A DNA stretch of 64,000 nucleotides from NCBI GenBank assembly GCA_949358305.1, contig OX442314.1, positions 45,888,581 through 45,952,580 of the forward strand, written 5' to 3'. Positions 36,999 through 63,795 of the stretch are shown here, in pieces; within the stretch, counting starts at the first letter, position 1; each line of letters starts with the position of its first letter. The notes under the pieces were generated by a model. It searched no databases, was not told the DNA's origin, and worked only from the letters and a program-made list of their open reading frames with translations. The DNA comes from Strigamia acuminata (lineage: Eukaryota > Arthropoda > Chilopoda > Geophilomorpha > Linotaeniidae). The position numbers and the translations under genes are program-made.

Positions 36999-37581
36999 TC
37001 CCGGCAGAAACTGTCATGGTCGCCCGATAGCTTTATTTTGTTTCCTTTCTCGCTTCACGTTCTCCTTGCTTGACCGGTGCGACAGAACTCTTTAGGTAAG
37101 TTATTTGTGTTGCATAGAACACCTATCACCGCACCAATTTATGTTTCTTAGATCCCGCAATGAATTACGCATCTTAGCGATGGCTTGCTCGCCGCCTCGC
37201 ATCTCAGCGATGGCTTGCTCGCCGCCTCGCATCTCAGCGATGGCTTGCTCGCCGCCTCGCATCTCAGCGATGGCTTGCTCGCCGCCTCGCATCTCAGCGA
37301 TGGCTTGCTCGCCGCCTCGCATCTCAGCGATGGCTTGCTCGCCGCCTCGCATCTCAGCGATGGCTTGCTCGCCGCCTCGCATCTCAGCGATGGCTTGCTC
37401 GCCGCCTCGCATCTTAGGGATGGCCCGCTCGCTGCTTCGCATCCTCGCGATGGCCCGCCGCACTACCTCTGCGTGGCTCGCAATGCCACCTCCGCATCTG
37501 CGTGGCTCGCAGCGCCACCTGCGCCCTCGTTTTGGCCACCTTCGTGTCGGCCATTTGCGCGTGGTCCGCTGCACTACCTAC
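36999..37581 (+). pseudogene. Zinc-ribbon gene copy 3: leader and exon 1, expanded by a 30-bp tandem repeat
   Basis: The leader GACGTCCCGGCAGAAACTGT to CACCTATCACCGCACC matches 10107-10228. Exon 1 starts like copy 1 (CGCAATGAATTACG) but then runs into eight near-identical 30-bp units (37171-37410) and two decayed ones. The copia-type LTR begins at 37582 inside this gene, and the gene resumes at about 40969. Confidence 0.6.
37171..37470 (+). repeat. 30-bp tandem repeat, eight near-identical units plus two decayed
   Basis: The unit begins ATCTCAGCGATGGCTTGCTC and ends GCCGCCTCGC, with period exactly 30. No unit contains a stop in three of the frames, so long readings appear on both strands (ISAMACSPPR repeated). 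High identity suggests recent expansion. Confidence 0.95.
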
Positions 37582-46137: not shown

Positions 46138-46858
46138 AGTGGTAGCAGAGGCCTGGAAAGACACCAGTGCCTCGTTTTTTCACTAATTTTCCGTAAATTT
46201 CGCGATTTTTTCGCGATTTGTGCGGAAATTTTTGTTTATTTCCAGTTTTTCGCCGAATTTCCGATGTCTCGACACACTTTGTACCCCGGAGTACAGTGTG
46301 GCCACATAGAACTTCATCTCGCTTAGTACCCCGGTGTACGGCGAATTTTTTTTCAGAAGTTTTTCCCGATTTTCACAATCGGACGGCGATTTTTTTCCCG
46401 ATTTTCGAAATCGGTCGGCGATCTTTCGAAGAATTCCGCATTTTTTATGCGCGGTGTGCACAGGGACGTCTGTGCACACAGATTCATCAACTTCTCCTTC
46501 TTTTTATTTCAGATTTCGAATTTATTTGTTAGTTTTAAGTTTTTTGGTGTGGGTCAATTAGAATCCTTGGCGCCCTTCGTCCAAATCTGGGCAAGCGTCA
46601 CTGTATTCTTAGACAAGGCTGAGCCCTGCGCCACCTAACATTCCCGCGGCCCCAGGTGGTCATAAAGGACGTTAGGGGGACACTTGTCTAAGGTTCTCAG
46701 CCAATTTTAGCATTGGCTCCCCGTCGAGGTCTTTCCGCTTCGAACAACGTTTGTGTGTGCGTCGGTAGTGCTTCGAGTGCTTCGAGTGAAAAGTGCTTCG
46801 ATTTCGTCAATTGTGCTTCGATTTTCGGAAATTTTTCGACGATTTTTCCTCCGCAATC
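46138..46858 (+). promoter_or_regulatory. 5' leader of the copia element with primer-binding site and hairpins
   Basis: The primer-binding site TGGTAGCAGAGG starts at 46140. Hairpins: 46273-46300 (CACAC, bulge TT, TGTAC, loop CCCGGA, GTACA, GTGTG); tandem CCGATT/AATCGG hairpins at 46366-46382 and 46398-46414 with different loops; and 46454-46479 (10-bp stem GTGTGCACAG, loop GGACGT). Such structure could serve dimerisation, packaging or translation. Confidence 0.7.
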
Positions 46859-49800
46859 ATGCAAAAGGCTTCCGAAGCGACGTCGGGACGTGTACCGGTC
46901 CTGACGACCGGCAACTACGAACAATGGCAACGAACAGTTAAGATGTTGCTCAAAAGTGAAGGCCTGTGGCATCACGTCACAGAAGACGGCGAGGAGGATT
47001 TTCTGAAGACGGCGGATGACAAGGGGAAACGCAAATATCAACGTCGGAAGGAACGAGCCCTAGGAACCATTTATTGTTTGGTATCCGAAGCCAAACAGTC
47101 GGCACTCGATGGCTGCGAGACACCGAAGGAACAATGGGACATGCTCGCCAAGATCTACGCCCCCAGTTCACTCGCCCGTCAGGCAGCTATGCGCCGACAG
47201 TTCTTGCAATTGAAACTGGAGCCGAACGAGGAGATGCCCGATTTCCTGGGGCGTGTAGACCTGATGGTTCGTCAATTGAAGGACATCGGAGAGGACATTC
47301 TCCCTCGACACCAGGCCTACCAGTACCTCGATTTTCTTCCGGCGGATTACGACCAGGCAACGTTCTCCATTTACCATTGGCCGTTGGCGAATTTTACCCC
47401 GGCCAAAGTCTCCGAACAGCTCTTGTCGGAATACCTTCGTTTGAAGTCGAAATCCGATCACAATACGAAGAAGACGTCGGCATTCGCCGCGGACAATCGC
47501 AACCGCAGTCAATCTCGCAATCCTCGTCCACTATCGAAAATTCGTTGTTTCAATTGCGATCAGATGGGCCACTACGCGAACAAATGCCCTCTTCCGCGCC
47601 GACAATTGAAGGAACAGCAACCGGCAGCTGCACTACAAGGACGATCTCGCAGCAAAAACCGACGTCGAAAGGGAACCAATTCTCAGCAACCGGGTGGTCA
47701 AAGCCGTGAAATTTCCCGCCCGCGACGTGATGCTGCGTACCTCTTGTCTGCGCCACCAGTTGTTACAGCACCGACTGTGCATTTCCTCCAATCCCACGAA
47801 TGGATCGTTGATTGTGGCGCAACAGACCACGTCTCGCACGTTCAAGCGTGGTTCACGAACTTTGTTTCCGTTGTCCCGTTCAACATCGAGTTAGGACAAG
47901 GCAGTTCGAAGGTCACAGGCAAAGGTGACGTTCCGGTCAAGTCGCTCATCGATGGCTGCGAATGCACCGTAATGCTACGCGACGTCTTATTCGCACCTGA
48001 CTTCGGCGCCAATCTTATCTCGGTTTCTCGGATTGATAAATGCGGACATCACATCCACATTCACAACTCGGAATTGCACACGTATGAAACGGATATCAAA
48101 CTAAGTGTTCTTCGGGCGAAACAGAAGTCTGGACTTTATTTCGTGGATGGGCTTATCTCGCCATTCGCCGCTCCGACTAATGTTTCGAGTCCTCCACCCG
48201 TTTCATCGTTGCCTCCGACTCCGACACCGACCACTCTAGTGACGAAGGAAGAGGACTTTCCCGCATTGCCCAAGTCTTCCAACAAGGCTAAGACGAAGTC
48301 GGCTGACAATATGACCGATTTCCGCTTGCCCGTCTCCTCCAACACCTTACTGGTCCCTTCACTTTTTCCTACCAGTCCTGCTCCTATTCCCGGATCCCAA
48401 CCTCAACAGATCCGGATGTATTCCAATGCCCTCACATCTCCTCTTCCCGTTGCCAAGTCAAACGCAACACCACCTCCTCCTGTTGCTAAGTCAAATGCAA
48501 CATCACCTCTTAAACCGGTTACTACGTCGGTCAACGTCGCGGATGCCACGGGATTGTGGCACAGCAGACTGGGTCACCTGCACACCAAAGCCATGCGGAC
48601 TTTGGCTGCTAACTCCCAGGTTTACGGACTTGATCCAGCTGCTGTTCGACAGGAACTTTCATGCAACACGTGCCGTGTCGCCAAGTCTACGCGTGCTTCG
48701 CATAAGCCGATTTCCGCGCCTTCGACCACGAAACCGCTTGAATTGCTTCACATGGACGTCTGGGGCCCGTCGAGACTGCCTTCCATTGGTGGCGCTAATT
48801 TCGCCTTCACCATTATCGACGACGCCACCAGGTATGCCTGGCTTTTCCCGATCGCCCGTAAATCCGATGTTTTTGCTACGTTCAAAGACTTTGTTTCCCG
48901 CGTTGAACGTATTGCCGATTGCCGGATAAAAACAATTCGTACCGACCGTGGAGGAGAATTCATTTCAAGGGATTTTGACCGTTATCTCGCCGACAAGGGC
49001 ATTGTTGCACAACGGACCAATCCCGCGAGCCCACAAATGAATGGAGTCGCCGAACGCCTGAACCGGACGATGGGCGATTATCTCCGCTCCGTTAGATCCG
49101 AAACCGGATTTCCGCATACGCTTTGGGCCGAACTTGCTGTGACATTCGTGTACATCAAGAACCGAAGTCCACATTCGAAGCTCAACGACGAAATCCCGTA
49201 CATTTTGTGGCGCCAGCGAGCTCTTTCCGTCAGACATTTTCGTAAAATCGGTTCCAAGTGCTGGGTGCACTTCACCGCGCCTGGACGCAACAAACTGGAT
49301 CCTCGAGCGTGGGAGGGATTTCTCGTCGGCTACGCTTCTGGTACTCGCGGTTATCGAGTTTTGAATCCGGCTACGAACACTGTCACCGAAACTGTCCACG
49401 TCCAAATCGATGAACGGCAGAACTTTAAACGCTCGCCCTTTTATGTTCCGGATCCGGATGACAATGCTCCACCCATGGAGGAGCCTGCTCGTGGCCACAC
49501 CCCGTCGCGTGTCACTCTTCATGATAATTTCCCAACTCAACCTTGGCCTCGACGACGTCGCGATTCGGATAACGATTCTTCCGCCGGCAGTAGTGACGAT
49601 GATGGAATTATCAGTCGTGCTCAGTCTGTCGCTTCGACCGCTCCGTCTTTCGCTTCATTTGCCCCGTCCGCCGCTGCAAGCGTGCCTCTGGATGGTGAGG
49701 CTATTCCTGATGGCTCCGTGACCGCTGCCGATGACTCCGTTACTGCAGCGACCGTTGCAGGACATGGCCAATTTTCTCCAACCATACGTTCCACGCGTTT

Positions 49801-51766
49801 ACCCCAGCTGCGACGTTCGATCTCTTACCCAACTCTTCCATGTCTTGACGATACCACGGCGATGTCTGTACAGGGTTCTGACTTTGACGACGACCTTCTT
49901 GACGAAGCGGCCGCCTTGCCTATTCCCGCTCCGGGTACGCCTAATTTGGCCCCTTTACGTGCTCTTCATTGCCCTTGGAGTTTCATTGGCGGCGTTTCGC
50001 CCTTCAGCGGATGGAGGAGAGAGGAACATCTCCGGAAAGATCAAATCCCGGGAAAGATCAAGGTCGACGTTTATTATTATCCGGAACACGGTGTCCGCTT
50101 GCGGTCGCAGAACGATATCGCCGCTTATTGTTTCGCACATCGGCTACCGTATGACGAGTCTATTTTCTTTTTTGGCAATTTGGAACACCACATGCCCTAT
50201 GTTCCACCATCGCCTCATCGTGTCTTCATGTGTTTTCGGGAACCGGCCACATATGCCGAAGCAGTTAAATTGCCCGAAGCACCGAAATGGACCAAAGCAA
50301 TCGACGAGGAGCTTTCTACTTTCAAGAAGCGCGAGGTTTACAAAGAGGTTCCGCGTCCACCGGATAAGACAGTCCTAGGTTGCAAGTGGATTTTCAAGTT
50401 AAAATCTGACGCCACCGGGACAATTCATCGATACCGTGCCCGACTTGTCGCACAAGGTTTCCGCCAAACAATGGGCGTTGATTTCGATGAAGTTTTTAGT
50501 CCGGTAGTTAACTTCGTGCTCATCCGATTTTTCTTCTGTCTTCTAGTCGTCTTGTTAGGATGGAGGGATACTCATCTCGACGTAAAATGTGCCTACCTCT
50601 ACGGCGACCTCGACCACGAAATCTACATGCGGATTCCCGCCGGTGCCACATGCTCCTCGCCCGACAACGTCTGGTTGTTGACCAAGTCGCTTTACGGTCT
50701 TCATCAGTCGGGGCGCATGTGGTACCAAAAGCTCGATGAAACGTTAACCGGACTCGGATTCCAGAAATTTCCGGCTTGTAATTGCGTTTACGCATTTGGA
50801 CATTCGGCCATCATGTTAGTTTACGTTGACGACATCGTTTTATTTTACGCGTCGGAGAACATCCGAGACCGTATTCTTGCATTGATCACGAGCAAGTTCG
50901 AAATCGTCAACCTCGGCCCGATAACCAAGTTGCTCGGAGTGGAATTCGAGCGTCGTGACGGGAAAGTTTTCATGACTCAACGCAATTACATCGATAAACT
51001 CCTCAAAAAGTTTAATGTTTCGTCCGATGCACTCATTAAAGTGCCTGTTACACCGGGAACCACGCTCGTGAAAGGCTCGTTGGACAATCTTCCGGATTTC
51101 CCGTATCGGTCGCTCATCGGATCGTTACTTTTTCTCGCTTCTCGCACTCGTCCCGACATCTTATACTCGGTCATCGCTCTCTCTCAGTACAACAACTGCT
51201 ACGACCAAAGCCACATTAAGTGTTTGCTTCAAGTTCTTCGATATGTGGCCAATACGAGTGATTATTCCATCGAACTTTCGAAATGCGATTCGAGTCAACT
51301 GTGGGGTTGCACAGACGCCTCTTGGGCCTCCGACATCGCTACATCGAGATCATTCGGCGGATACATTGTCTACATCGGAAGTGTGCCCATTGGCTGGAGC
51401 TGCAAAAAACAGACCAGTGTTGCTTGCTCCACCATGGAAGCCGAGTTTGTGGCATTAGTCGAAATCGTCAAGGAATTATACTGGTTGGACAGTATTTATC
51501 AAGTATTTCCGCCTTTACGTCGATTATCGAAACCGATCATATTTTCCGATGCCCTCGCCTCGATTCAGTTCACGAACAACGACATCGAGAACTCGAAAAC
51601 GAAACATATTCGAGTAAAATTTCACTGGCTTCGTGAGTGGCATATTGCCGGATGTTTCGAACTCCGCAAGATTCCGGGTGAGATAAATGTATCCGACATT
51701 TTCACCAAGTGGCTCAGTTCAGAGCGCCTCCGGAATTTATTATCACGCATTTTCGTCTCGAAGTAG
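46859..51766 (+). CDS. gag-pol: Copia Gag-Pol polyprotein with MBD/TAM-like insertion between integrase and RT
   Basis: 1635 aa from ATG 46859; an upstream in-frame ATG at 46793 is less likely because Gag similarity starts at MQKASEATSG. Order: Gag (NYEQWQRTVKMLLKSEGLW), zinc knuckle at 230 (CFNCDQMGHYANKC), protease Asp at 318 in VDCGATDH (Cys where DSGA has Ser), a Pro/Ser-rich linker with EEDFPALP, integrase zinc finger (HSRLGHLHT ... CNTC), core D633, D696, E732 (D-35-E). An insertion at about 1051-1107 (GWRREEHLRK, KVDVYYYPEHGVRLRS, DIAAYC, SIFFFG) matches the methyl-CpG-binding/TAM fold. RT follows with YVDD at 1322, then RNase H (CTDASWASD, CSTMEAEF). No stop or frameshift. The MBD could tether the pre-integration complex or sense methylated DNA. 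Confidence 0.95.
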   Translation: MQKASEATSGRVPVLTTGNYEQWQRTVKMLLKSEGLWHHVTEDGEEDFLKTADDKGKRKYQRRKERALGTIYCLVSEAKQSALDGCETPKEQWDMLAKIYAPSSLARQAAMRRQFLQLKLEPNEEMPDFLGRVDLMVRQLKDIGEDILPRHQAYQYLDFLPADYDQATFSIYHWPLANFTPAKVSEQLLSEYLRLKSKSDHNTKKTSAFAADNRNRSQSRNPRPLSKIRCFNCDQMGHYANKCPLPRRQLKEQQPAAALQGRSRSKNRRRKGTNSQQPGGQSREISRPRRDAAYLLSAPPVVTAPTVHFLQSHEWIVDCGATDHVSHVQAWFTNFVSVVPFNIELGQGSSKVTGKGDVPVKSLIDGCECTVMLRDVLFAPDFGANLISVSRIDKCGHHIHIHNSELHTYETDIKLSVLRAKQKSGLYFVDGLISPFAAPTNVSSPPPVSSLPPTPTPTTLVTKEEDFPALPKSSNKAKTKSADNMTDFRLPVSSNTLLVPSLFPTSPAPIPGSQPQQIRMYSNALTSPLPVAKSNATPPPPVAKSNATSPLKPVTTSVNVADATGLWHSRLGHLHTKAMRTLAANSQVYGLDPAAVRQELSCNTCRVAKSTRASHKPISAPSTTKPLELLHMDVWGPSRLPSIGGANFAFTIIDDATRYAWLFPIARKSDVFATFKDFVSRVERIADCRIKTIRTDRGGEFISRDFDRYLADKGIVAQRTNPASPQMNGVAERLNRTMGDYLRSVRSETGFPHTLWAELAVTFVYIKNRSPHSKLNDEIPYILWRQRALSVRHFRKIGSKCWVHFTAPGRNKLDPRAWEGFLVGYASGTRGYRVLNPATNTVTETVHVQIDERQNFKRSPFYVPDPDDNAPPMEEPARGHTPSRVTLHDNFPTQPWPRRRRDSDNDSSAGSSDDDGIISRAQSVASTAPSFASFAPSAAASVPLDGEAIPDGSVTAADDSVTAATVAGHGQFSPTIRSTRLPQLRRSISYPTLPCLDDTTAMSVQGSDFDDDLLDEAAALPIPAPGTPNLAPLRALHCPWSFIGGVSPFSGWRREEHLRKDQIPGKIKVDVYYYPEHGVRLRSQNDIAAYCFAHRLPYDESIFFFGNLEHHMPYVPPSPHRVFMCFREPATYAEAVKLPEAPKWTKAIDEELSTFKKREVYKEVPRPPDKTVLGCKWIFKLKSDATGTIHRYRARLVAQGFRQTMGVDFDEVFSPVVNFVLIRFFFCLLVVLLGWRDTHLDVKCAYLYGDLDHEIYMRIPAGATCSSPDNVWLLTKSLYGLHQSGRMWYQKLDETLTGLGFQKFPACNCVYAFGHSAIMLVYVDDIVLFYASENIRDRILALITSKFEIVNLGPITKLLGVEFERRDGKVFMTQRNYIDKLLKKFNVSSDALIKVPVTPGTTLVKGSLDNLPDFPYRSLIGSLLFLASRTRPDILYSVIALSQYNNCYDQSHIKCLLQVLRYVANTSDYSIELSKCDSSQLWGCTDASWASDIATSRSFGGYIVYIGSVPIGWSCKKQTSVACSTMEAEFVALVEIVKELYWLDSIYQVFPPLRRLSKPIIFSDALASIQFTNNDIENSKTKHIRVKFHWLREWHIAGCFELRKIPGEINVSDIFTKWLSSERLRNLLSRIFVSK

Positions 51767-61088: not shown

Positions 61089-61800
61089 TATATCTATTCG
61101 AACATGCTCATTATTATTTCTTTTCTTTTCTAACGTGACATTTAAATTGCTCAACGATAATGTGTAAATGGTTTATTATTTTTTTTCTTTTCTTTTTTTT
61201 TTTTTTTTATATATTTAAATTTTTGTGCTCAATCGCTATTTTTTTTAAGTTTTCAACACATAGATAATCATGTCATTTTATGGGTACGCTCAAAATAAAT
61301 TTTTAATTTCTGTATAATATTGTAATCCGCTTTATTATTCTCGACGCAATAAATGTCAATGTACAATTTATTCACATCAGCCACGCAGAAACATTAATTT
61401 GCACCTCGAATAGTCGAATCATTGGGGATAATCGGACACTTCTCATCTTTAAAAAGGACAAAAATAATAATTGCAATTTGTAGACACAAAATTAACCATA
61501 AAATAATAATTCTAATTCATAGACACAAAATTGACCATAAAAAATAATAATTCTAATTTATAGACACAAAATTGACCTTAAAAATAATAATTCTCATTTA
61601 TAGATACAAAATTGAGCATAAATACCAGAAACAGTTCTGGCTTTCGTTTGCTTTGGACGCTGCCATATTTTCTTGTTAAAATGGTGATTAATGTACGTGA
61701 TTAATGTTGCAGGGGCGGATTATGCACAGACAACACGAATATTTATTTTTAGACCATAAAAATTCAATTTTAGACAATAAAATAATTCCACAAGTTTAAT
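61089..61800 (+). other. 3' UTR and spacer with a tandem repeat of about 41 bp
   Basis: AATAAA near 61291. At 61460-61625 four units share ACACAAAATTGACCATAAAA and ATAATAATTCTAATTTATAG. Nothing else is recognised. Confidence 0.6.
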
Positions 61801-61805
61801 TTATG

Positions 61806-62147
61806 CTACCAGGAGCCTGGAAAAAAAAATCTGTCTAGGATCCCAAAACAGTTTAATCCGACCCCTGACCGGTCGTCTTGCACGGCGTGAATCGTGCACA
61901 AATTCCCGTCTTCCAAGAACTGCACCAAGAAGGCTTCGGCCGCCTCCTGCAGCGCTTCCAACGCCCGCACTTTCCACCGAAAAAAAATACTCGACGAATC
62001 CCCGCAGATTTCGCGCACCACTATCGAAAAAGGCAACTTAGGGATCAACAAATCGGTCGAATTTTGATATCGACGTATTTCCTGCAGCACTTTTGTGCTG
62101 CAAGGCGTAAGCCCTCCTCTCGCACGTGCCTGGCTCAATTGTTGCAC
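61806..62147 (-). pseudogene. CENP-A (centromeric histone H3)-like histone-fold fragment
   Basis: The minus-strand reading shows the H3 alphaN and core: [65 protein letters not shown], the extra residue in loop 1, the Trp in FRW and [11 protein letters not shown] are CENP-A-type features rather than canonical H3. After IHA the expected alphaC continues only in a different frame ([11 protein letters not shown]), about 20 bases off. Upstream there is no ATG, only a short tail after an in-frame stop near 62200. This suggests a pseudogene or retrocopy, or an exon whose partners I cannot place. There are no introns where H3 genes would need them. Confidence 0.75.
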
Positions 62148-62426
62148 ACAACCCGAAGGTGGCCGTGTGGGATCTTTACGAAACTCGTCTTCTGCGCAGC
62201 TTTACTGAGCAGTTTTCGGAGTGAGCCAAACGGTTTTGACCCATTCTGCTCTCTCTTGATTCTGCTTCCAAACTGTTCACATCCGTGTCAAACTTATGCC
62301 CATTTGCTAAGTGTGACCTGTGATTTATTGGAAGAATTGAGACATCTTGCTGGTCTGTACCAACTGTATGGAATAGCGCCCTTTGCTTGGATCACTAAGT
62401 GTGATTTGAGCCATCATATCTGAGTG
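62148..62426. other. Spacer, probably the start of the LTR/leader of the right-hand element
   Basis: No gene. Repeated CTAAGTGTGA phrases at 62307 and 62395. The ATCAC-TAAGT-GTGAT hairpin at 62391-62405 precedes the array. Confidence 0.4.
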
Positions 62427-62639
62427 AAGCTGACATTGAGCTTGCTCTGTCAGTTTGAAGTTCTTTGTGTCGAGTCTACTCCACAAAGAAGACTGTGTGT
62501 TGACGGATTGTTACGTCGAGCTTGCTCCGTAATAATCAAACCGCTGTGTGCTAGACGTATTCTCGTGTCGAGCGTGCTCCACGGAAATTCAGGTGTAATT
62601 AGAGGTTGATTTTGGCATCGAGTCTACTCTGCCAAAATC
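62427..62639 (+). repeat. Array of five bulged hairpins with a shared core and divergent, compensated stems
   Basis: Each unit is: outer stem, two-base bulge (TT or TC) on the 5' side, GAG, four-base loop, CTC, outer stem. Units: 62427-62456 (CTGACA with TGTCAG, loop CTTG); 62461-62490 (TTCTTTGTG with CACAAAGAA, loop TCTA); 62506-62537 (GATTGTTACG with CGTAATAATC, one G-T pair, loop CTTG); 62559-62588 (TCGTG with CACGG-type partner, one G-T and one mismatch, loop CGTG); 62608-62639 (GATTTTGGCA with TGCCAAAATC, loop TCTA). The outer stems are unrelated in sequence yet remain complementary. Located upstream of a gag gene. Confidence 0.88.
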
Positions 62640-62820
62640 CACGCTCATGCGACGCCATCGACACCATCTTGGAGCCGACTGATAACCGTGAGTGTGAGTG
62701 TGTGTTCGAGAAGAGAAGACTGGTCGACATTATTATTATTTCCCCGTATTTATTTTGTACTTTTGAAACGATTAAAATGATTGCATTATTCCTTTATTCG
62801 TGTGTGTAAAATCATTCCCT

Positions 62821-63105
62821 ATGACAACCATTTGGCCGCTGAGTAGAAGTCCTAAAAAGCATCTCAACGGTGATAACTTGTTAGATTTGACCAGTTTAGC
62901 AAGTAAAAACCCGGATCGCCGCAAGTTTGCGAACAACTGTTTCAAGAGGCAGAGGTTATTCCCCTGCTTACTTGAATTTTTTTTTAGAAAATTGAGAATT
63001 CCCTGGGATCCGAGAATTCCAGATGGAATTTTAATTATCGATCCTGAAAATCCGCACATTTATCTGCAGAAACTCGAAGCAGTTATCGCTGAAACGAGGA
63101 AATGA
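62821..63105 (+). CDS. gag: Gag N-terminal part of the right-hand LTR element (partial or frameshifted)
   Basis: ATG 62821; 94 aa (MTTIWPLSRSPKKHLNGDNL, NPDRRKFANNCFKRQRLFP, ILIIDPENPHIYLQKLEAVI) to a stop at 63103-63105. The assignment rests on position: the following reading, one frame over and overlapping at the end, carries a Gag zinc knuckle. Either Gag is split by a frameshift mutation or this is a short separate ORF. The capsid-type motif is not obvious. Confidence 0.5.
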   Translation: MTTIWPLSRSPKKHLNGDNLLDLTSLASKNPDRRKFANNCFKRQRLFPCLLEFFFRKLRIPWDPRIPDGILIIDPENPHIYLQKLEAVIAETRK

Positions 63106-63127: not shown

Positions 63128-63427
63128 TTGAGGCAACCTAGATCACAATTTGCCATACCTAAAAAGACTTCACCAGAAGAAGCGGAGAGCGCTGACAATA
63201 ATGGTCAAGCTACAACCGCGACAGTTAAGGTGGAAGGAAGTGCGGGAGCAACAGCAACGGCTCCAGTGAGAATGACGCCCGAAAATTCACCCTGTCACAA
63301 TTGTGGCACACTAGGACATTGGGCAAGACAGTGCCAAAAACCAAACAAGCAGTCTTCACCAAAAGTGGATATACTTGTAGAGAAGTTGGTGAACGCCATC
63401 ACGAAAGCTGTCCAAAAAAACTTGTGA
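63128..63427 (+). CDS. gag: Gag nucleocapsid part of the right-hand LTR element
   Basis: The frame is open from about 63092 (RGNDPIRGSAKLRQPRSQF). It contains a Pro/Ala/Thr-rich linker and the knuckle CHNCGTLGHWARQC (C2C4H4C) at about 63295-63336, then KVDILVEKLVNAITKAV and a stop at 63425-63427. No ATG at the start, so it is probably made by continuing from the upstream Gag reading. Confidence 0.65.
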   Translation: MRQPRSQFAIPKKTSPEEAESADNNGQATTATVKVEGSAGATATAPVRMTPENSPCHNCGTLGHWARQCQKPNKQSSPKVDILVEKLVNAITKAVQKNL

Positions 63428-63795
63428 GCACGGGTCAAGAAAATCAGGAACCCGTGCTCCCAACTGAATCGGAAACATTGCAGGAAAGTGAAGGCGCAAC
63501 TGCAAGTGGGAAAGAAGTGGCACCTCACAAAATCTTGGAGACAGTTTATTTACCGATAGAAAATATAGTCCGATAGTCAATCGTATCCAACCTGGCCTCG
63601 CCCCATCGTAAAGAGGCGGTCGCCATGACGCTTGGTTTGTAAAGCAAAAAGAAGAAATGGTATGCGAAATTGAATGCGATCAAATAGTTGGAATTCGATT
63701 TCCGCCACCAGAGATAACACCATTTTCAAAAATTGAAAAGGCAAAAGAAGTTGACAAGAAATTTGTACGAAAATACGCCTTCTGAAGCCGCGTGA
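63428..63795 (+). other. Gag-pol spacer with broken coding traces
   Basis: Short open frames (QENQEPVLPTESETLQESEG) with no recognised domain. Confidence 0.4.

Follow-up and report, generated by a model that had tools for sequence, protein, structure and literature searches.

A tandem array of conserved bulged RNA hairpins in the LTRs of a Ty3/gypsy-type element of Strigamia acuminata: a possible arginine-sandwich response element

To our knowledge, TAR is usually regarded as a lentiviral speciality. Rev and Rex bind RNA via arginine-rich motifs, and the Rex and Rev response elements are each one large folded element. According to excerpts of PMC12789967, both are RNA structures, that of Rex lying in the LTR, and are bound by a regulatory protein produced from doubly spliced RNA. 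Excerpts of PMC11885821 describe the requirements of HIV-1 TAR: U23 forms a triple with A27-U38, and the substitutions U23C and U23A abolish Tat binding, as does a swap of G26-C39 or G28-C37; any base works at position 24, U25 is deletable, and HIV-2 naturally has UU as its bulge. The arginine sandwich is defined in PMC6189040, of which the excerpted part describes the U40U41 site of 7SK, with U40 on A43-U66, as identical in secondary structure to the TAR bulge.

The DNA analysed here (the window) is a 64-kb stretch (C1:45888581-45952580) of the 237.5-Mb genome of S. acuminata. Positions 62427-62639 carry an array of five hairpins of one design, in which an outer stem is followed by a two-nucleotide 5' bulge, GAG, a four-nucleotide loop and CUC. 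The first-pass annotation of this DNA had described five neighbouring units sharing an outer stem, a TT or TC bulge, GAG, a four-base loop and CTC, and all of these were recovered at the place it gave. The hairpins are listed below with the DNA core of each unit, always preceded by TT or TC.

62385..62411, forward strand: H0, plain 11-bp hairpin without a bulge, directly 5' of the array; fold z -3.18
62427..62456, forward strand: H1, 9-bp outer stem, UU bulge, GAG-CUUG-CUC; core of unit 1, GAGCTTGCTC at 62438; fold z -2.15
62461..62490, forward strand: H2, 9-bp outer stem, UC bulge, GAG-UCUA-CUC; core of unit 2, GAGTCTACTC at 62472; fold z -2.75
62506..62537, forward strand: H3, 10-bp outer stem, UC bulge, GAG-CUUG-CUC; core of unit 3, GAGCTTGCTC at 62518; fold z -3.70
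62559..62588, forward strand: H4, outer stem of 5 bp plus 3 beyond a mismatch, UC bulge, GAG-CGUG-CUC; core of unit 4, GAGCGTGCTC at 62570; fold z -0.62
62608..62639, forward strand: H5, 10-bp outer stem, UC bulge, GAG-UCUA-CUC; core of unit 5, GAGTCTACTC at 62620; fold z -6.30

G-T pairs instead of breaks had been reported for units 1, 3 and 4; this needs correction for unit 4, where the window copy has a real break, a C-A mismatch at 62562/62585. This hairpin folds poorly by itself and is absent from the minimum-energy fold of the whole stretch, while in the L037 copy H4 is complete and all five units are present in the minimum-energy fold. The sense strand of a 266-nt stretch folds with -87.8 kcal/mol (z -3.52), the antisense strand with -69.2 kcal/mol (z -2.40). 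The window has five matches to T[CT]GAGNNNNCTC flanked by a minimum of 5 outer pairs, all of them inside the array, and 20 windows simulated with first-order Markov composition had no match; a chance origin of the array was rejected on these counts. In the spacers, the motif CUGUGUG is repeated before H3 (62493-62499) and H4 (62544-62550) and also precedes H1 in L037 (about 1317-1325, counted on the L037 minus strand). Because the spacers before hairpins share this motif, the repeat unit of the array may be a UG-rich spacer plus hairpin.

A query of the genome for other copies of the array, as the first-pass annotation had proposed, returned 40 scored places among 272 first-look candidates, with stems that covary among the copies. 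Three equal-scoring pairs of places lie 11.7-11.8 kb apart. In one of them both array copies are found within 1091-bp repeats that are 100% identical and whose ends read TGTGG..CCGCA. Inspection by eye showed a target duplication of 4 bp, a primer-binding site following the 5' copy, which may resemble a tRNA-Pro type, and, ahead of the 3' copy, a polypurine tract. Since the paired copies sit in identical end repeats, the array lies within the LTR, at about positions 574-803 of the 1091-bp form, and hence in both LTRs of complete copies. The complete element is of the Ty3/gypsy type, with 1091-bp LTRs and a length of about 12.9 kb. L007/L008 was rejected as an LTR pair, the two being identical over all 3250 bases and thus a duplicated stretch.

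What the window carries is an LTR fragment truncated on its 5' side, with the first 261 bp of the LTR not recognisable; homology to other copies begins at 62112 in 35 of 39 cases and ends at 62923-62937 in 36 of 39. Its main landmarks other than the hairpins are the following.

62112..62923, forward strand: LTR fragment bearing the array, corresponding to LTR positions 262-1091 of the 1091-bp form
62688..62693, forward strand: GTGAGT, candidate splice donor 3' of the array, present in 25 of 27 LTRs
62771..62776, forward strand: ATTAAA, candidate polyadenylation signal, RATTAAA being present in 27 of 27 LTRs

No primer-binding site follows the LTR end at 62923. The adjoining stretch 62924-63096 recurs on C6 at 81% identity, matching from the very first base after the LTR end and with no LTR preceding it, as expected if the LTR fragment had been inserted into pre-existing sequence with an edge at 62923/62924. 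From query base 239 on, the 1076-base stretch that follows the LTR end matches copies of another family at 75-77%, and a degenerate gag-like stretch at 63163-63524 belongs to this other, older retroelement family (75-77% match). Among the places matching the 1076-base stretch, only the window's own is near any of the 40 array places, as judged by eye. The array had first been placed upstream of the gag of an LTR element; since the gag-like stretch is of another family and the C6 match has no LTR, a role of the array as leader of the downstream gag was rejected in favour of its position within an LTR. Elsewhere in the window, a Copia-type polyprotein (46793-51766) has a methyl-CpG binding domain match (PF01429, 24.5 bits, cut-off 21) between integrase and RT, and tandem repeats were observed at 37168-37454 (30-bp unit, 9.6 copies) and 61460-61622 (40-bp unit, about 4 copies).

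Motifs were counted in 32 full-length LTRs, reduced to 27 by removal of 5 near-duplicates. Upstream of the array, ACCAATC and GGGCGG are each present in 25 of 27 LTRs. This arrangement, with CCAAT/GC boxes upstream and the candidate splice donor and ATTAAA downstream, suggests that the array lies in R. A TATA box was not used as a landmark, the exact ATATAAAAC being found in just 13 of 27 LTRs. H0 is kept in most LTR copies, with the CTTGAATTAC arm in 22 of 27, and its arm variants (CTTGAATTAC, CTTGGATCAC) appear compensated by eye. Right 3' of the array, at about 62652-62672, lies a GACGCCATCTTGG-like stretch, exact in 19 of 27 LTRs, which presumably resembles a YY1 site on the other strand. 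At LTR position 376 of L037, the near palindrome CCAAACGGTTTTGGC is identical in 25 of 27 LTRs.

Examination of the copies makes it nearly certain that an RNA structure in the LTR is maintained by selection, as had been proposed from the window alone. In 36 distinct rows obtained from 40 fetched copies, 1633 of 1683 outer-stem cells (97%) pair, and pairing falls to 34-48% when one arm is slid by 1 to 3 bases (pairs were counted cell by cell in scripts; for the last H2 pair just 27 of the 36 rows contribute letters). On a tree of the 32 full-length LTRs, built with the array left out and near-duplicates included, 12 double changes, 34 changes of the G-U type that keep pairing, 8 mending and 18 breaking changes were counted, against 0-4 double and 7-25 G-U-type changes in the slid controls; an H2 loop insertion in some copies seems to misalign three H2 rows of the full-LTR alignment and to inflate the breaks counted for H2. 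Covariation is exemplified by CTGACA/TGTCAG, TTGACA/TGTCAA and CTAACA/TGTTAG in H1, and by GGCA/TGCC, GGCG/CGCC and AGCG/CGCT in H5. In the outer stems G-U is found in 135 cells at 24 pairs and A-C in 12 cells at 9 pairs, although the G-U cells are not independent, 47 of the 135 being at two pairs; in the inner stems the two are about equal (8 and 9). The excess of G-U over A-C in the outer stems therefore points to pairing that acts as RNA of the LTR sense strand.

A strict palindromic two-core pattern matched 332 places in the genome and its reversed control 4; the number 332 refers to pattern places, several per array, and is not a count of proven members of this LTR family. As the first 50 of these places fall in 41 arrays, the genome probably contains over 200 arrays. 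Under a strict count, the 79 loci retrieved, which partly overlap, have five units in 32 cases, four in 21, three in 13, two in 6, seven in 5 and one in 2. The five loci with seven units are fetches of two places, so 7-unit arrays stand at two places. Array size is about 4 to 7 units. Seven diverged copies, 75-100% alike to the L059 query (itself one of them), have 4 or 5 units each, near variants included, and further altered stems; L063 and L064 are the same places as L059 and L060, and the window copy is 76% identical to L059 over 181 bases.

Within the core of the 36 distinct arrays, 179 of 180 cells have U as bulge base 1, and the same proportion, 179 of 180, have A-U as inner pair 2. G-C makes up the first inner pair in 171 of 180 and the third in 173 of 180, and neither is ever C-G in this set. 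When the bulge was left free, 332 units in the 79 partly overlapping loci (a number unrelated to the 332 pattern places) had T at base 1 in 330 cases and, at base 2, C in 197, T in 130, A in 4 and G in 1. On the tree, where H2 was kept apart and per-site counts of the core cover H1 and H3-H5, a single change is seen at the four base-1 sites and 13 changes at base 2. Base 2 is mostly C or U and as C forms a CpG with the next G, and CpG decay rather than freedom may be a partial cause of its difference from base 1. A point against strict constraint on the core is that the first and third G-C pairs change 0.75 and 0.62 times per site, versus 0.78 in the outer stems, the products being G-U, A-C or mismatches. 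A search of the seven diverged copies without sequence constraint listed 38 hairpins, of which 24 have T[TC]-GAG-CTC without deviation, 6 count as near variants and 8 are other or unrelated. In L069 two units are such near variants, one having the first inner pair flipped to C-G and another C at bulge base 1, and in L068 one unit has A at bulge base 2. Across loci the loops have 4-5 nt and are mostly CUUG, UUUA or CGUG; they vary between units and hardly within a unit (two loop bases, 1 change in 8 sites).

The near-invariant bases are the residues that make up the U23.A27-U38 triple of TAR, a triple that the array hairpins may form likewise. The first-pass annotation makes no mention of this likeness. 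The features of the arginine sandwich, a bulge pyrimidine that could form a triple with a stem pair and a paired base before the bulge, are seen here by sequence and covariation. The other constraints mostly fit the Tat-TAR mutants described in the excerpts of PMC11885821; base 2 and the outer stems show the variation that these rules permit, base 2 mostly between C and U. Arginine-sandwich recognition of the hairpins appears somewhat probable.

The separately read pieces of one element copy show a 964-aa gag ORF that contains Retrotrans_gag and a CCHC knuckle, followed by RT, RNase H and integrase in Ty3/gypsy order; the protease match is weak and below the cut-off. gag was found in 47 scored copies, 43 of them without a stop. 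Gag carries two arginine-rich motifs. Both are kept in all three subfamily copies compared, which are 86-91% alike across this region, and one of the three has a single substitution per motif; other stretches of this region are conserved too. A third ORF (L043 1-2178, minus strand) is open for at least 726 codons and rich in Arg/Ser. It has no ATG near its start, where a good 3' splice site, TTTTACAG, is seen by eye, and its protein looks to be made from spliced RNA. This ORF was found in 79 scored copies, 70 of which have no stop. In five diverged copies nearly all arginines of the Arg/Ser-rich stretch are retained, and codon changes relative to the reference amount to 11-29 synonymous and 10-23 nonsynonymous, the latter outnumbering the former in one of the five copies; because nonsynonymous sites are roughly three times more numerous than synonymous ones, these counts suggest purifying selection on the stretch. 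A search with the later 551 aa of the protein found no relative among 7997 scored candidates, and the ORF had no Pfam match and no PDB match. Viral contigs searched with an RT piece gave no relative, and nematode SL1 had no exact match in the genome. The element has seemingly been active recently.

We propose that the array would serve as a multi-site RNA response element of the LTR transcript. Each hairpin would be an arginine-sandwich bulge of the TAR/7SK type, with the bulge U docked onto the A-U pair that lies one step higher, itself placed between two G-C pairs whose guanines would be gripped by arginine, and an arginine-rich protein would bind the sites, several at once. The loop may be recognised as well, given that its two bases are almost constant within each unit. 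The first candidate for the ligand would be the element's own Gag, with its two conserved arginine-rich motifs, and the second the Arg/Ser-rich protein of the third ORF. Because of its LTR position between promoter-like boxes and the candidate splice donor and polyadenylation signal, the array would be carried by element RNAs, probably at both ends of the full-length RNA. A likely use would be cis-recognition of the element's own RNA, comparable to Tat/TAR or Rex/RxRE, in transcription, splicing or export, with packaging as a close alternative. With a transcription start close to the CCAAT/GC boxes, the array would be some 300 nt downstream, which is far for a TAR. A further point against the proposal is that a cut-out piece of host 7SK stem 1, which lacks part of the 3' strand, does not form the bulge fold alone. 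The C-G flip and the C at base 1 in a diverged copy slightly lower our confidence, and the full statement, with ligand and role, is offered as a tentative one that falls a little short of being probable.

Packaging or dimerisation offers the best of the other explanations, though an unlikely one. Gag, through its arginine motifs or its zinc knuckle, would bind the array to pick genomic RNA, a task for which many bulged stems of the same shape would serve. The long Gag with its two conserved arginine-rich stretches and CCHC knuckle would be an apt partner, and tandem copies would suit multivalent assembly. However, the array is 5' of the candidate splice donor and would thus be part of spliced RNA as well, inspection by eye shows no self-complementarity of the loops, and packaging does not by itself explain the near-invariance of the bulge U and the A-U pair.

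Rather improbable is mimicry of a host factor, by which the hairpins would imitate stem 1 of host 7SK. Their binding of HEXIM, or of an arginine-rich host protein related to it, would release P-TEFb or draw it in close to the element promoter, with no need of an element protein. The two host components exist, as a 7SK gene (match to RF01052, 58.8 bits) and a HEXIM gene (152.4 bits). Stem 1 of host 7SK reads ACAUUGA, of which the Rfam structure line shows the UU as unpaired, and H1 likewise reads ACA-UU-GA. According to the title of PMC5673678, 7SK-responsive P-TEFb target genes are regulated by latent HIV-1 TAR when Tat is absent. Against this, the likeness amounts to 7 bases and is whole only in H1 among the units of the window, and the further bulges that excerpted descriptions give for 7SK stem 1 are missing from the array units.

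Control of splicing or 3'-end formation would involve no arginine recognition; the stems would act by masking the splice donor and ATTAAA or by spacing them. This reading draws on the presence of GTGAGT and RATTAAA just downstream in nearly all LTRs, but it is very improbable. Several like units with one core exceed the apparent need of masking, and the folds computed end 5' of both signals. Finally, DNA-level inverted repeats (protein sites, cruciforms) or a residue of unit duplication devoid of RNA function would fit the variable size of the array, whose units are duplicated or lost, but are practically untenable, and DNA-only palindromes were rejected, given the preponderance of G-U over A-C on one strand and the compensating changes.

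Returning to the response element, the near-exact retention of the arginine-trap residues of TAR and 7SK in many LTR copies, in tandem units with covarying stems, would suggest a repeated origin of such RNA-protein recognition, and would indicate that Ty3/gypsy elements can be controlled at the RNA level. The copies would also represent a natural mutation series for the needs of an arginine-sandwich site. A bolder and doubtful extension is that the element evolved its tandem TAR-like element independently of lentiviruses, copying the arginine-sandwich bulge of host 7SK, and that its own arginine-rich protein reads this element and controls transcription or export, which would constitute a Tat/TAR-like circuit outside retroviruses.

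Comparison with known systems places the array close to, and yet apart from, each of them. The first-pass annotation knew of no described element with this exact array, a statement that neither Rfam nor the open-access papers retrieved contradict: no such hairpin array was described in the titles and abstract openings of those papers, subscription journals being mostly outside this scope, and none of 4227 Rfam families, which may not include HIV TAR, matched the window or L037 at gathering score, the weak matches (E up to 10 for the window, 5 for L037) being all far below the cut-offs. With Ty3/gypsy elements the present element shares a gag with CCHC, RT-RNase H before integrase, a 4-bp target duplication, TG..CA ends and, by eye, the polypurine tract and primer-binding site; it differs in the third ORF without Pfam or PDB relatives, the LTR hairpin array and the weak protease match. 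With the Rex and Rev elements the array shares an RNA structure, in the case of Rex also one in the LTR, and differs in consisting of simple tandem hairpins. With arginine sandwich motif 3 of 7SK stem 1, as excerpted in PMC6189040, it shares a UU bulge followed by G-C and A-U, whereas 7SK has four bulges in one helix and the array one per hairpin, repeated, with no Rfam match to 7SK. The likeness to HIV-1 and HIV-2 TAR lies in the location within the LTR, present in both LTRs of complete copies, and in a lower stem and a U-first 5' pyrimidine bulge followed by G-C, A-U and G-C; the near-invariant residues of the array are those whose change abolishes Tat binding in the excerpts of PMC11885821. 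In contrast to TAR, the array has about 4 to 7 tandem units, a 2-nt bulge as in HIV-2 and loops of 4-5 nt in place of the hexaloop, which in the excerpts of PMC6189040 contacts Tat:CycT1:AFF4, and it belongs to an arthropod Ty3/gypsy-type element. Lacking the hexaloop and an Rfam family match, the array is not filed as TAR, and may instead represent an arginine-sandwich-type array that works like TAR.
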